64,000 bases of DNA from Desulfosarcinaceae bacterium (GTDB taxonomy: Bacteria; Desulfobacterota; Desulfobacteria; Desulfobacterales; Desulfosarcinaceae). Positions within the stretch are counted from its first letter, which is position 1. Each line of letters starts with the position of its first letter. The stretch is taken from contig JASJCL010000003.1 in the NCBI GenBank assembly GCA_030066015.1, positions 1-64,000 of the forward strand, given 5' to 3'. Of the stretch, positions 39,728 through 51,223 are shown piece after piece. The notes under the pieces were generated by a model that ran no database searches, was not told the DNA's origin, and saw nothing but the letters and a program-made list of their open reading frames with translations. The translations under genes were made by a program, and so were the position numbers.

Positions 39728-40915
39728 CTAAATCGTTTCGGAGATCTCCTCGTCGGTCAGATAACAGGCAGGGTCCGGTGCCCACACATCGTCATGGACC
39801 GCCTCGGCCCGCACGCGAAAGTTGCCGCCGCAGATGTCCAGCCATTTGCACCCAGCGCAGCGACCGGTGACATACTGCTTTTTGATCTTAAGCTTGCGGA
39901 GCAGGTCGTCTTCGGGTTCGGTCCATATTTTCGAGAAAGGTCGCTGGCGTACGTTGCCGAAGCTGTGGTGACGCCAGAACTGGTCGGCGTAAACCTCGCC
40001 GTCCCAGCTGACGCAGCCGATGCCACGACCCGAATTGTTGCCCTCGTTCATTTTGAGGAGCTCCAGCACTTCGGCGGCGCGCTGGGGATCCTCCTTGAGC
40101 ATGCGCAGATAGAGGTAGGGGCCGTCAGCGTGATTGTCCACCGTGAGAACCTCTTTGGGCTTGCCGCGCTCGTGCAGATCTCGGGTCCGGTCCAAAATGA
40201 GGTCCACGGCTTTGCGGGTCTCCTCGTGGCTGAGGTCGTCGTTCACCATGTCAGAACCGCGGCCGGCATAGACCAGGTGGTAGAAGCAGACCCGGGGGAC
40301 CTCCATCTCCTCCAGAAGATCGAAGATGCCGGGAATCTCTCTGACGTTTGTTTTGTTGATGGTGAATCGCAGGCCTACCTTGATGCCGGCTTGCTGGCAG
40401 TTGCGGATGCCGTCCAAGGCTTTCCGGAAGGAGCCCGGTACACCCCGGAAGTGATCATTGACCGCCTCCATGCCATCGAGACTAATGCCGACATAGGAGA
40501 GGCCAATCTCTTTCAAGGTTCTGGCCATCTTGGGGGTGATGAGGGTTCCATTGGTGGAGATCACCGCCCGCATCCCCTTTTCAACGGCGTAGGCTGCCAG
40601 GTCCGGCAGGTCGGGGCGCACCAGGGGCTCCCCACCGGAAAAGAGCATCACCGGCGAACCGAAGCCGGCCAGATCGTCAATGAGGGCCTTGCCCTCTTCG
40701 TGGCTCAACTCGTCGGCGTAAGCCTCTTCGGTGGCATGCGCGTAGCAGTGGATGCACTTCAAATTACAGCGTCGGGTGACGTTCCACACCACCACCGGTC
40801 GCTTGTCCTTGGAAAATTGCAGCAGATGCGATGGCAGTTGGGAGCTGTGGCGGCCGTAACGCAGGGCGTCAGACGGTTCCACGGTACCACAGTAGAGCTT
40901 GGAGATACCGATCAT
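39728..40915 (-). CDS. ahbC: 12,18-didecarboxysiroheme deacetylase AhbC (radical SAM)
   Basis: The 395-residue protein starts [21 protein letters not shown], characteristic of AhbC/NirJ. It has radical SAM cysteines C50, C54 and C57 ([13 protein letters not shown]), the SGGEPL motif, [23 protein letters not shown], and a SPASM-type C-terminus ([39 protein letters not shown]). It removes acetate side chains from didecarboxysiroheme to give Fe-coproporphyrin III, the substrate of AhbD. The NirJ alternative (heme d1) is less likely because ahbD is adjacent and no nir genes are seen. Confidence 0.88.
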
Positions 40916-46782: not shown

Positions 46783-47436
46783 TCAGGGCAGGACACGACT
46801 TCCCGGATGTTCCCGTTGCCAACGCTCCCACTGGGTATCCTGGGAGGGCAACAGGGGCAGCCGACGTCCGAAGAGCGGTCCCTGAATGGCGGTGAGCCCC
46901 TTGTCATCCGGGTACCAGAGGCTGCCGGTCTCCTGATCCACCAGCACGAAGGTGAAGTCGTAGGTCCAGCCCGAAGGCGCCAGGGTAAGCGGTTGGCCGT
47001 CCAGTTGGCGGCTGTACACGGCCGCCAGATCCACCAACGGTCAGTAGGCGGCTGCGATGGGCGTTTCTCCCAGGTGGGTGTTGGCGATCTCGTGCCGGGT
47101 CAGGCGGCGCACCGAGTAGGCGTGGGCGCTGCCGCTCTCCGCATCCGATATGCCGATGATGCGCGTTTCCTCCGGCAGATCGACGCCATCGGCGGCCAGG
47201 GACCCATCGTCCAAGGGTCGGATGGCGTTGCGCCCGATACCGAACTGGAACCCTTCCGGACGGAATCCGAGGCCAATCGCCTGGGTGATATCCCATCGTT
47301 CGCCTTTTTGGTCGACGATATAGGTTTTGCCGTCCGCCTCACCTACGGCGGCTGCGTGTACAGTCCCGAGCGCAACGAGCAACAAAAAAAGGCTGAGCAG
47401 TATCGATTCACATCGTTGAAGGGTTCGCTTCCCCAT
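46783..47436 (-). CDS. DUF3179 secreted protein, candidate selenoprotein (in-frame UGA at codon 132)
   Basis: ATG 47436 follows GGGAGGTG. Residues 1-29 are a signal peptide ending in VHAA. The frame meets TGA at 47041-47043 and continues unbroken to 46783, giving 217 residues if the TGA is read. The joined protein is a normal DUF3179 domain: HAYSVRRLTRHEIAN, GETPIAAAY-U-PLV, then WTYDFTFVLVDQETGSLWYP, IQGPLFGRRLPLLPSQDTQWERW and HPGSRVL. The UGA sits precisely where the family has the first Cys of Y-C-P-L-C, and coding quality does not drop after it. A SECIS-like hairpin follows. The alternative is a nonsense-mutated pseudogene. Function of DUF3179 is unknown; the position suggests a periplasmic redox or metal site. 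Confidence 0.8.
47006..47027 (-). promoter_or_regulatory. Candidate bacterial SECIS element
   Basis: In the DUF3179 mRNA, UGGCGGC and GCCGCCA form a perfect 7-bp stem with loop CGUGUACA. The hairpin begins 14 bases after the UGA. A G is the second loop base, 22 bases after the UGA. A short GC stem with G among the first two loop bases at 16-37 bases from the UGA is the known bacterial SECIS pattern read by SelB. Confidence 0.72.
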
Positions 47437-47612
47437 AACACACCTCCCTGATTGATCGACGATGTTTGCATTCTTTCCCCTCAGAGGGTAAACACTGCCA
47501 CTTCACCTGTACAGGTCTCGCAGGGATGATCCGGGGAGGGGGGAATTGGCGGGGCGCTGGCCCGCGGATCGCCGATTGGGCACCTTCGCCAGTTAGATTT
47601 GGAGATATTCGA

Positions 47613-48478
47613 ATGCTTGTCAGGGCTGTAAGGACGCTGTCTCCCGATTTCCACCCGACAAGGTGGCCACTCTTGAGACGGGTGTTCTACGCTGTGGTAT
47701 CGCTGCTGCGTCCGGAACGATTGGCGGTGGCCTACGGGCACCAGCTGTTTGTCGAAATAAGAGACAGATCGGCCTTCTCCTACTTCCTTTGGCGCAAGCG
47801 AAGCTACGAACCGGCGCAAAGCGAATTGGTAACGCGACTATTGGCCAAGGGGGACATCGCTGTCGATATCGGTGCAAATGTGGGGTATTTTGCCTGCCTA
47901 GTCGCTCGGCAAGTCGGTGCGGAGGGAAAGGTCTATGCAGTTGAGCCTGAGGCAACGAATTTCAAGTGGCTGCAACACAACTTGTCGATCAACGGAATGC
48001 ACACCGTGAAATGTTTCAGAAACGCCCTCTCCAATTCCATCGGAACTGAAAAATTGTATCTCTCAGCGGATAGTATGGGAGAGCATTCCCCTTTTTTTAA
48101 GGCGTTGGGAAGCGATATCAACAGGTGCCCACCATCACCTTCGACCGGTTTATTCAGTACCAGCTCGGCGGCGGGCAAGACGCCATAAAACTGGTGAAGA
48201 TCGATGTCGAGGGGAATGAATTACAGGTGCTCGAAGGGATGTCCCGTCGCCTGATTGACAACTTGATTGTTGAGTATTCGCCCTATCGAGTGGTGGAAAG
48301 CGGTGGGGATCCCCTCCGCTTTTTTCAGATATTAGATGCGCATTTTGCGAAGATGGCGTTGCTGTCATCCACCCACAGCGCTATTGAATCGGTAGAGGAG
48401 ATCGTCGCCAACATCGACGACCTAATTGGCGACAAGTTCTCCTTTTTTGATCTGCATGTGGTGTTTCCCACCCATTGA
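47613..48478 (+). pseudogene. FkbM-family methyltransferase, frameshifted
   Basis: ATG 47613 has GGAG nine bases upstream. The first frame encodes a SAM-binding half (GDIAVDIGANVGYFACLVARQVG, VYAVEPEATNFKWLQHNL) and stops at 48188. The second frame, shifted by -1, carries the matching second half (VPTITFDRFIQYQL, IKLVKIDVEGNELQVLEGM, LIVEYSPYRVVESGG, to 48478). The join must fall between about 48101 and 48125, because the second frame has a stop at 48098. Either a one-base deletion has broken the gene or it is a sequencing error. FkbM enzymes O-methylate sugars or secondary metabolites. Base composition is visibly less GC-rich than its neighbours. Confidence 0.8.
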
Positions 48479-48633: not shown

Positions 48634-49032
48634 TCATGAATTTCGAAGCCGGCGGTCCCAGTCGAAACTTTTGGCCGTCACCGAATCCTCGAGGCGACGC
48701 AGACGGCGTTCGAGGCGGTCATACCGCTGTTTTAGGCGCTCTGCCGCCCGGCGGGGTGTATGGGCATAGGCGTCGTAAAAGCTGTCTTCTCCTTCGGCGT
48801 CGAAGGGCAGAACGGGTTCGGGCTTGAGGAGCAGGGCGGTGAGCAGATAGGCACCCAAGGTGGGCCAAACACCGCTCACCAGCAGCAGGAAGACGGCGAT
48901 GGCGCGCGTCCAGAAGAGCGAGAGGTCAAAGTGCGTGGCAATTCCCTTGCAGACCCCGAGGATGACGCCGTCACGGGATCGATAGAGTCGTCGCCTGGAT
49001 CTTGCGTGAAGTGGATTGCGGTGATGCTTCAT
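48634..49032 (-). CDS. pspC: Phage shock protein C
   Basis: The 132-residue protein starts MKHHRNPLHARSRRRLYRSRDGVILGVCKGIATHFDLSLFWTRA in PspC style. A membrane helix follows (about 44-70, IAVFLLLVSGVWPTLGAYLLTALLL), and a basic C-terminal coil (AAERLKQRYDRLERRLRRLEDS). With PspB it senses inner-membrane stress and controls PspA. AAGGA precedes the ATG, which overlaps pspB by 4 bases. Confidence 0.92.
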   Translation of the reverse strand: MKHHRNPLHARSRRRLYRSRDGVILGVCKGIATHFDLSLFWTRAIAVFLLLVSGVWPTLGAYLLTALLLKPEPVLPFDAEGEDSFYDAYAHTPRRAAERLKQRYDRLERRLRRLEDSVTAKSFDWDRRLRNS

Positions 49033-49274
49033 GATGACGCGTCCTTCTTTCGGGTGTGGATGAGAATGGTTTCAAGGGCCTCTACGCGTTCCTCCATCCG
49101 TGCCATGCCCTGATAGATCTCTTGCAGCATGCGGGCGTCTGCTGCGGACTGCTCGCGACCCACGCCCCCGCTGCCTTTGATGATGCGGATGGCCAGAAGG
49201 ATGGTGCCGCCGACCACGGCCAGCGCCATGACCACCCCACAGAACACGATTCCCACGATAATCGCCGCCTGCAT
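49029..49274 (-). CDS. pspB: Phage shock protein B
   Basis: The 81-residue protein has one N-terminal membrane helix (IIVGIVFCGVVMALAVVGGTILLAI) and a cytosolic helix with ADARMLQEIYQGMARMEERVEALETIL, the PspB pattern of a leucine-zipper-like tail. It acts with PspC in the membrane-stress sensor. Its ATG directly abuts the pspA stop; the ribosome site GAGGAGCGG lies in the pspA end. Confidence 0.88.
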   Translation of the reverse strand: MQAAIIVGIVFCGVVMALAVVGGTILLAIRIIKGSGGVGREQSAADARMLQEIYQGMARMEERVEALETILIHTRKKDASS

Positions 49275-49952
49275 CTATTTCCGCTCCTCGGTCGGGTCGC
49301 TTTGTTTCGCTTTTAGGGCCCGCAATTCCTCCTCAATGTCCTCGTCCACCATCAGTTTGTCAAGCGCATCTTCGAGGGGGGTGGTGCGCTTGGGATGAAC
49401 CAGATCGGCCTCGGCCTCCATCCGTTCGATGCGATTCTCCAGCTCCTCAAATTTGTGCACCGTTTCGCGGCTTTCGGCGCGCCGGAGCTCGGCCTGGGCC
49501 TGCTTCTTGTGACTGGCGGCGGCATGGCGTTGGGCCAGCAGGCGCTGTTTGTCCCTGGCGCCATTGAGTTTTTCTTCGAGTTGCAGGATCTCTTCGCGAT
49601 ACTGTTCCACGAGGGCTTCATGACCGGCCAACTCCTCCCGACGGGTATCGCCGCTCTGGAGGTAGCGCCTTTTTTCGATAAGCGCTTCCCTTGCCAGATC
49701 CTCGCGCTGTTTGCGCACCGCCAGCGCCGCCTTGGCCTCCCAATCGCGGCACTTCTCGTCCAGCAACTCAATTTCCCGGCGAATCTTGGCCTGCTCGGCC
49801 ATGACACCGGCGCAGGCGGCCTTGAGTTCCACCAGGGTGTCCTCCATTTCGTGGATCATGAGCCGGATCAGTTTATGGGGATCCTCGGCACGGTCCAGCA
49901 TGGCGTTGATATTGGCGCTGATGATGTCTCGGAATCGTGAAAAGATGCCCAT
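49275..49952 (-). CDS. pspA: Phage shock protein A
   Basis: ATG 49952 (MGIFSRFRDIISANINAMLDRAEDPHKLIRLMI) has AAGGAGG upstream; 225 residues. The N-terminus includes the amphipathic membrane-binding helix. The rest is the long PspA/Vipp1 coiled coil (VMAEQAKIRREIELLDEKCRDWEAKA, VEQYREEILQLEEKL). It oligomerises on damaged inner membrane and, when free, inhibits PspF. The sigma-54 promoter at 49996 drives pspABC. Confidence 0.95.
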   Translation of the reverse strand: MGIFSRFRDIISANINAMLDRAEDPHKLIRLMIHEMEDTLVELKAACAGVMAEQAKIRREIELLDEKCRDWEAKAALAVRKQREDLAREALIEKRRYLQSGDTRREELAGHEALVEQYREEILQLEEKLNGARDKQRLLAQRHAAASHKKQAQAELRRAESRETVHKFEELENRIERMEAEADLVHPKRTTPLEDALDKLMVDEDIEEELRALKAKQSDPTEERK

Positions 49953-49995
49953 TTCGGCCTCCTTGGCGTGTGTGTTTGGATTGATCATCCATATT

Positions 49996-50012
49996 CCAAT
50001 CATCGTGCCAAA
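49996..50012 (-). promoter_or_regulatory. Sigma-54 promoter of pspABC
   Basis: On the minus strand TTTGGCACGATGATTGG matches the -24/-12 consensus TGGCAC-N5-TTGC with correct spacing and one mismatch (G for C in the -12 element). The pspA start is 44 bases downstream. Confidence 0.85.
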
Positions 50013-50061
50013 GCAGTATCAATAAAAATTACAAATAGTTGTGCCGATAATTCCGATTTGC

Positions 50062-50111
50062 TTACCATAATTAATGGTAAAAATTAAGAAAGTATGGTAA
50101 AAAAAACCATA
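50062..50111. promoter_or_regulatory. PspF upstream activator dyads
   Basis: TTACCAT-AATTA-ATGGTAA (50062-50080) is a perfect inverted repeat. A second dyad is TATGGT (50093-50098) and ACCATA (50106-50111), separated by A residues. Both lie between pspA and pspF, upstream of the sigma-54 promoter. The second ends two bases before the pspF start, consistent with activator binding sites that also allow pspF autorepression. Confidence 0.75.
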
Positions 50112-50113
50112 AA

Positions 50114-51223
50114 ATGGATAAAATTACTAAAATACCCAGCATCCAGGAGGCCCTCGGTCAATCCGACACCTTTCTTGCCTTCCAGGAGCACCTCTCGCGG
50201 GCGGCGCTGGTGGACCGGCCGGTCCTCATTGTCGGTGAGCGGGGCACCGGTAAAGAGCTGGCCGCCCAGCGGCTGCACTATTTATCCCACCGCTGGCAGT
50301 CTGCGCTGGTGACCCTCAATTGTGCCGTCCTACCCGCCCACCTCATCGAGGCGGAGCTTTTCGGCCATCAGCGCGGCGCATTTACGGGCGCCTCTTCGAC
50401 GCGGATGGGCCGATTCGAGGCGGCCGACGGTGGGACGCTTTTTCTCGATGAGGTGGGCACCTTGCCGCTGCCAGTGCAGGAGAAGCTCCTGCGGGTGGTG
50501 GAGTACGGCAGTTTCGAGCGGGTGGGCAGCAGCCGTTCCATCTCCGTCGATGTGCGCATCGTTGCAGCCACCAACGCCGATCTGCCGGCGCTCTGCCGCA
50601 AGGGCCGCTTCAAACCCGATCTTCTCGATCGGCTCAGTTTCGATGTGCTTCGGCTGCCGCCCCTCAGGTCGCGGGAGGGGGATATCCTGCTGTTGGCGAA
50701 CACTTTCGCCGCCCGCATGGCCCAGGAATTGCGCCGAGACGGTGTTCCCCGCTTCTCGCCCGAAGTGATTCACGAACTGGAGGTCCATACCTGGCCGGGG
50801 AATGTTCGTGAACTGAAGAACGTTGTCGAACGGGCAGTCTATCAGGCCGACGGCGATGCCATCGGTACAATTGAGATCGACCCTTTCGGCACCTGGGAGG
50901 CGCCGCCCACAATTCCGCCGCCAGTCAACCGCGAATCGACCGCAGCAGTTCCCGAAGCAGCAGGGCGCCCTATCGCCGACAGCCCTCCCGCTGCCATCGA
51001 TGCGCTCCTCGATCAAGGGCTGCCCGAAGCGGTTTGGCAGCTGAAGGTAGCCCTCCTAGAAAGGGCCCTGGCGGCAGCTCGCTTTCACCAGCGGGAGGCC
51101 GCCCGACACCTGGGTTTGACCTACCATCAGTTCAGGGGGCTGTACCGCAAGTATCGGGCGTGGCGCGCACGCGGTCAGGCGGGGGCCGACGAAGCCAGTG
51201 GCGACGCCGACAAATCGAGCTGA
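50114..51223 (+). CDS. pspF: Sigma-54-dependent activator PspF
   Basis: The 369-residue protein lacks a receiver domain and begins with the AAA+ core (IPSIQEALGQSDTFLAFQEHLSRAA). It has Walker A VGERGTGKELAA, the sigma-54 contact loop GAFTGA, Walker B GGTLFLDEVGTL, and TWPGNVRELKNVVERAVY. A Pro-rich linker and a Fis-type HTH (HQREAARHLGLTYHQFRGLYRKY) end the protein. It hydrolyses ATP to open the sigma-54 pspA promoter and is held inactive by PspA. No Shine-Dalgarno is visible before the ATG, which is unusual in this window. Confidence 0.93.
   Translation: MDKITKIPSIQEALGQSDTFLAFQEHLSRAALVDRPVLIVGERGTGKELAAQRLHYLSHRWQSALVTLNCAVLPAHLIEAELFGHQRGAFTGASSTRMGRFEAADGGTLFLDEVGTLPLPVQEKLLRVVEYGSFERVGSSRSISVDVRIVAATNADLPALCRKGRFKPDLLDRLSFDVLRLPPLRSREGDILLLANTFAARMAQELRRDGVPRFSPEVIHELEVHTWPGNVRELKNVVERAVYQADGDAIGTIEIDPFGTWEAPPTIPPPVNRESTAAVPEAAGRPIADSPPAAIDALLDQGLPEAVWQLKVALLERALAAARFHQREAARHLGLTYHQFRGLYRKYRAWRARGQAGADEASGDADKSS

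Follow-up and report, generated by a model that had tools for sequence, protein, structure and literature searches.

The locus described here raises a simple question: does the TGA codon inside an otherwise continuous reading frame of the window (the whole stretch of 64,000 nucleotides that was analysed) terminate translation, or is it read as selenocysteine (Sec)? On the minus strand, the frame runs from an ATG at 47436-47434, closely preceded by GGAGG, to a terminator TGA at 46785-46783; it comprises 217 codons, and its sole interruption is the TGA at 47043-47041. The coordinates 46783-47436 and the single in-frame TGA, reported in an earlier note on this DNA, proved to be exact. The plus-strand reading of the same interval makes no sense and was discarded. 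The gene and the codon in question are the following.

46783-47436, minus strand: coding sequence of a predicted short-form DUF3179 selenoprotein, 217 amino acids including Sec132 (from the open reading frame, the PF11376 match and the orthologues).
47041-47043, minus strand: in-frame TGA, putative codon 132 for selenocysteine, aligned with the Cys of the family's Y-C-P-L motif (every short-form relative read has TGA there, several long DUF3179 proteins TGT or TGC).

In the window, an EamA transporter gene lies downstream, and on the other side a divergently transcribed FkbM methyltransferase gene (47466-48478, plus strand) is split between two frames, one matching positions 1-70 of the FkbM profile and the other positions 98-156, with a break near 48125-48188 that is due to either a frameshift mutation or an assembly error. 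A phage-shock-protein cluster occupies 48634-51223 (pspC, a pspB-like gene and pspA on the minus strand and a divergent pspF-like sigma-54 activator), and a radical SAM protein with a SPASM domain is encoded at 39728-40915 on the minus strand.

A search through 389 genomes belonging to the organism's own class returned 26 readable short-form (single-repeat) members, the window included, and all 26 have TGA at the Sec codon. When 84,980 species genomes were scanned with the Sec column masked as X and with patterns drawn from other parts of the protein, TGA occupied this codon in 61 of 61 relatives, one of which (L116) contains an additional stop, TAA or TAG, elsewhere. The carriers span at least six phyla, among them Desulfobacterota (including the Olavius Delta 4 symbiont and two Desulfoluna species, D. 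spongiiphila AA1, L103, and D. butyratoxydans MSL71, L102, whose records bear no mark as MAGs), Nitrospirota, KSB1, Calditrichota, Gemmatimonadota and Bacteroidota. The 82 genomes around a KSB1 genome gave 23 strong short-form matches with one in-frame TGA each, and genomes of this group harbor up to four copies. At one locus of a member of Calditrichia (L111) and at one of KSB1 (L119), two short-form selenoprotein genes were found together. The few short forms of Nitrospirota (296 genomes) have TGA, and most long forms of this phylum lack a stop. No single-repeat member with Cys at the Sec column was detected among the short-form relatives examined. The earlier note had named unrelated truncations among the relatives as evidence against a selenoprotein; what they have instead is the same TGA codon, and since it stands at the same column in all short-form relatives, chance, pseudogenization and sequencing error are effectively excluded as its source.

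Cys does occur at this column in long DUF3179 proteins, which in the same phylum have either TGA (UPLT, UPLA, UPLS, UPLC) or TGC/TGT (CPLC, CPLT) there, so that the Cys/UGA pairs which had been suggested as a check are indeed present. Of the family's Y-C-P-L-C motif named in the earlier note, the window protein retains the first Cys position, as Sec, and the second Cys is absent (Y-U-P-L-V). The residue at Sec+3, V in the window, is V, A, Q, S or I in the short forms and T, C, A or S in the long Sec forms. A tree of 102 rows, computed with masked Sec letters from few columns and rooted at the midpoint, gathered the 70 short forms behind a single branch supported at 100/100, and this set is a clade on the assumption that the root does not lie inside the short forms. 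Among the long forms of the same tree, Sec and Cys alternate, and three to four label changes are needed. As far as can be judged from these sequences, the single-repeat proteins are a monophyletic subfamily, with Sec as the only residue found at the column in the short forms examined.

Bacterial SECIS elements are hairpins located just 3' of the UGA, with the apical loop within about 16-37 nt and a G in this loop. The hairpin found in the window agrees with this description in its position, loop distance and loop G.

47007-47026, minus strand: core of the candidate SECIS hairpin, GGCGGC-CGUGUACA-GCCGCC, with GUG in the apical loop, starting 15 nt past the UGA (codon constraint at +6 to +10).
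46994-47037, minus strand: wider region selected for RNA structure, +6 to +49 from the UGA (z against synonymous shuffles, 60 genes).

Compared with synonymous shuffles of the 60 genes, the windows starting at +6, +12 and +18 had mean z of -2.06, -2.00 and -1.52, and the remaining windows, from -180 to +236, gave mean z of about -0.5 to +0.3. Over most of the alignment, the synonymous-codon entropy of the 59 orthologues stays close to background; at codons +6 to +10 it collapses: V is encoded by GTG in 58 of 59 and Y by TAC in 57 of 59, and S is encoded by AGC or AGT only. The stem is built from differing synonymous Ala codons, depending on the lineage. The best pairing is GCGGCUG-UGUA-CAGCCGC in 45 members (a 7-bp stem and a 4-nt loop, Ala codons GCG GCU) and GGCUG-CCGUGUA-CAGCC in 13 (a 5-bp stem, one codon away on the 5' side, Ala codons GCU GCC), and the hairpin of the window has a 6-bp stem with Ala codons GCG GCC. 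Of 60 genes, 59 retain the GUG of the loop, and at the outer pair +18:+35 we observed G-C, G-U, A-U and U-A. These lineage-specific solutions with synonymous Ala codons constitute a compact data set on the requirements of bacterial SECIS elements.

The machinery for Sec insertion, which the earlier note had proposed to look for, is encoded in full by the organism's own genome: profile searches retrieved SelA (533 bits) and SelB (above the cut-off, 363 bits), a tRNA-Sec with the anticodon TCA in the gene (UCA) was found, and SelD has a Sec codon of its own, a TGA at its known Sec site, CGU. SelA was identified in 18 of the 20 genomes carrying the short-form gene and was not found in the other two, G405 and G407, both of which are draft metagenome-assembled genomes. 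The selenoprotein call made in the earlier note is thus borne out by the conserved TGA, the Cys/UGA pairing, the hairpin under selection with its codon constraint and the complete Sec machinery, and the gene in the window almost certainly encodes a selenoprotein.

When translated through the TGA, the protein matches PF11376 with 97.5 bits (cut-off 27, E 1.2e-27) over residues 87-216. The match is unbroken across the TGA, as was claimed for the two joined halves, but only positions 22-147 of the 292 in this two-repeat profile are covered, short of its full length. Within the long form, the N-terminal half and the C-terminal half are themselves related (hhalign E 1.2e-16), and the Pfam model of DUF3179 therefore describes two repeats, the C-terminal one being degenerate and devoid of the Cys/Sec hairpin. 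The short form aligns with the N-terminal half of the long one with an hhalign E of 5.5e-40 and hence represents one repeat, in front of which stand a signal sequence and a small region at the N-terminus (D42, G45, W48). The corresponding features are given below.

46786-47178, minus strand: single DUF3179 repeat, residues 87-217, with H115-E116 and Sec132 (profile match; E116 and position 132 invariant over 54 sequences).
47350-47436, minus strand: predicted N-terminal signal sequence, helix 2-23 in the model, ending in GTVHAAA (model; hydrophobic N-terminus in relatives).

The hydrophobic N-terminus, found in 51 of 54 relatives, together with the model, supports the earlier proposal that the protein is secreted, and export is accordingly probable. 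In the AlphaFold2 model built from 54 sequences (pLDDT 95), Sec132 is placed at the end of strand 125-132, from which a tight turn leads into strand 137-142, and H115-E116 follow or close helix 109-115. H115 is present in at least 90% of the sequences and replaced in a few members. Of the mature short-form proteins, 46 out of 56 contain no Cys. Sequence searches of the PDB gave no solved relative of the window protein (best E 0.76), a fold search with its model yielded nothing at E <= 0.001, and NCBIfam has no model for either the short or the long forms. A fold search of BFVD produced one weak match, the uncharacterized protein A0A1V0SD44 of the giant virus Indivirus ILV1 (E 8e-5, TM 0.47), which, judging from the model, may possibly be a viral DUF3179 protein.

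The gene neighborhoods revealed no conserved operon, as no Pfam family matches more than 6 of the 91 adjacent genes. In two Desulfobacterales, a flavin disulfide reductase related to PRK06370, MerA and lipoamide dehydrogenase is encoded directly downstream of the selenoprotein gene (L088:857-2314 and L093:5050-6522), and a dihydrolipoyl dehydrogenase occurs near DUF3179 in haloarchaea. We discarded the flavin disulfide reductase neighbors as a functional clue because they accompany too few members.

Considering all these data, we suppose that the short-form DUF3179 protein is most likely an exported redox enzyme with a single Sec residue. Judging from established knowledge, the hairpin 3' of the UGA would recruit SelB with its Sec-tRNA, and Sec would be inserted in place of termination. 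The product would consist of the signal sequence, the small N-terminal domain and one DUF3179 repeat and act as a periplasmic one-Sec oxidoreductase, in which the selenol of U132, aided by the conserved E116 and the nearly conserved H115, may reduce a substrate. Its regeneration should depend on an external thiol, since no Cys is available in the mature protein that could resolve a selenenyl intermediate. The redox role is argued from the chemistry of Sec and from conservation. To this explanation as a whole, an exported 217-residue one-Sec selenoprotein with its redox role included, we assign a rough probability of 0.6. Catalytic redox use of Sec132 is, taken by itself, probable, and the more specific assignment as a thiol-dependent peroxidase or reductase is tentative.

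Sec132 might instead be a ligand of a metal or metalloid together with H115 and E116, which would make the selenoprotein a binding, storage or chaperone protein and not a redox catalyst. Several Cys-containing long forms have CPLCG, which resembles a rubredoxin-type metal knuckle, one Cys relative adjoins a heavy-metal P-type ATPase, and the short form contains no resolving Cys. However, neither the short form nor most of the Sec-containing long forms retain the second Cys, which rules out a four-ligand knuckle as a general feature; moreover, H115 is not retained in every member, and the gene neighborhoods vary. On balance, we consider a metal-binding role rather unlikely.

Far less probable are the readings that dispense with Sec altogether. 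That the UGA is a true terminator or a nonsense mutation, leaving a pseudogene or a functional fragment of 131 residues, is suggested by the stop codon itself and by nothing more; it is contradicted by the presence of TGA at this codon throughout the orthologues, by the conservation of the protein past the TGA up to W206/P211 in the short-form alignment, and by the SECIS signal and the Sec machinery, and is highly improbable. Still harder to credit is a genome-wide recoding of UGA as another amino acid, for example Trp (code 4): it would account for the read-through in this gene, but TGA also terminates the same gene with no conserved protein beyond it, the TGA of SelD is at the CGU site, the neighboring genes are ordinary open reading frames under table 11, and what relatives show at the column is Cys and not Trp. 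A pseudogene, a sequencing error and genome-wide recoding were thus rejected on comparative data.

Two reviews (PMC9312934, PMC13188914) already count DUF3179 (pfam11376) among the selenoprotein families, with the motif UxxC/T and the accessions MBW1804167.1 / MDJ0986319.1, and credit the listing to Zhang and Gladyshev (2007), a study of the Olavius symbiont; the novelty at the family level implied by the earlier note therefore falls away. In RefSeq, a haloarchaeal Cys member bears the name "DUF3179 domain-containing (seleno)protein". In the literature searched, in which three papers mention DUF3179 or PF11376, we found no published description of a single-repeat, UxxV/A, Sec-only subfamily, the 2007 study being represented here by the reviews that cite it. 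Whether the single-repeat proteins constitute a separate, undescribed and obligately Sec-containing subfamily, with a lone selenol, typically no Cys, a distribution over at least six phyla and multiplication within genomes, next to two-repeat relatives that alternate between Sec and Cys, seems to us evenly balanced. If true, it would point to chemistry beyond the reach of Cys. Why selenium is needed is hard to tell in most selenoprotein families, as they include Cys members, and a subfamily with Sec in every member found, usually without a helper Cys, offers a clean test of Sec-specific chemistry. Standard annotation likely cuts the short-form genes at the UGA, and the real 217-residue protein may consequently be absent from the proteomes of many anaerobes.

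Like other bacterial selenoproteins with Cys/UGA pairing that are covered in the same reviews (DUF1573, AhpC-like), the window protein has a UGA-encoded Sec in place of a conserved Cys; those families are, however, unrelated to DUF3179, and the model of the window protein resembles no solved structure. With the listed DUF3179 selenoproteins it shares PF11376, Sec in place of the first Cys of YCPLC and an origin from the same kind of bacteria. Judged by the published motif description, it differs from them in having one repeat instead of two, an N-terminal domain of its own, V at Sec+3 (A, Q, S or I in relatives) where the published UxxC/T motif has C or T, and no Cys member found. The Cys-containing DUF3179 proteins of haloarchaea, Nitrospirota, Gemmatimonadota and Thiothrix have a homologous first repeat with the same HE, YCPL and W residues; in contrast to the window protein, they contain Cys in place of Sec, usually as CxxC, and are about 300 residues long or more, with a second repeat.
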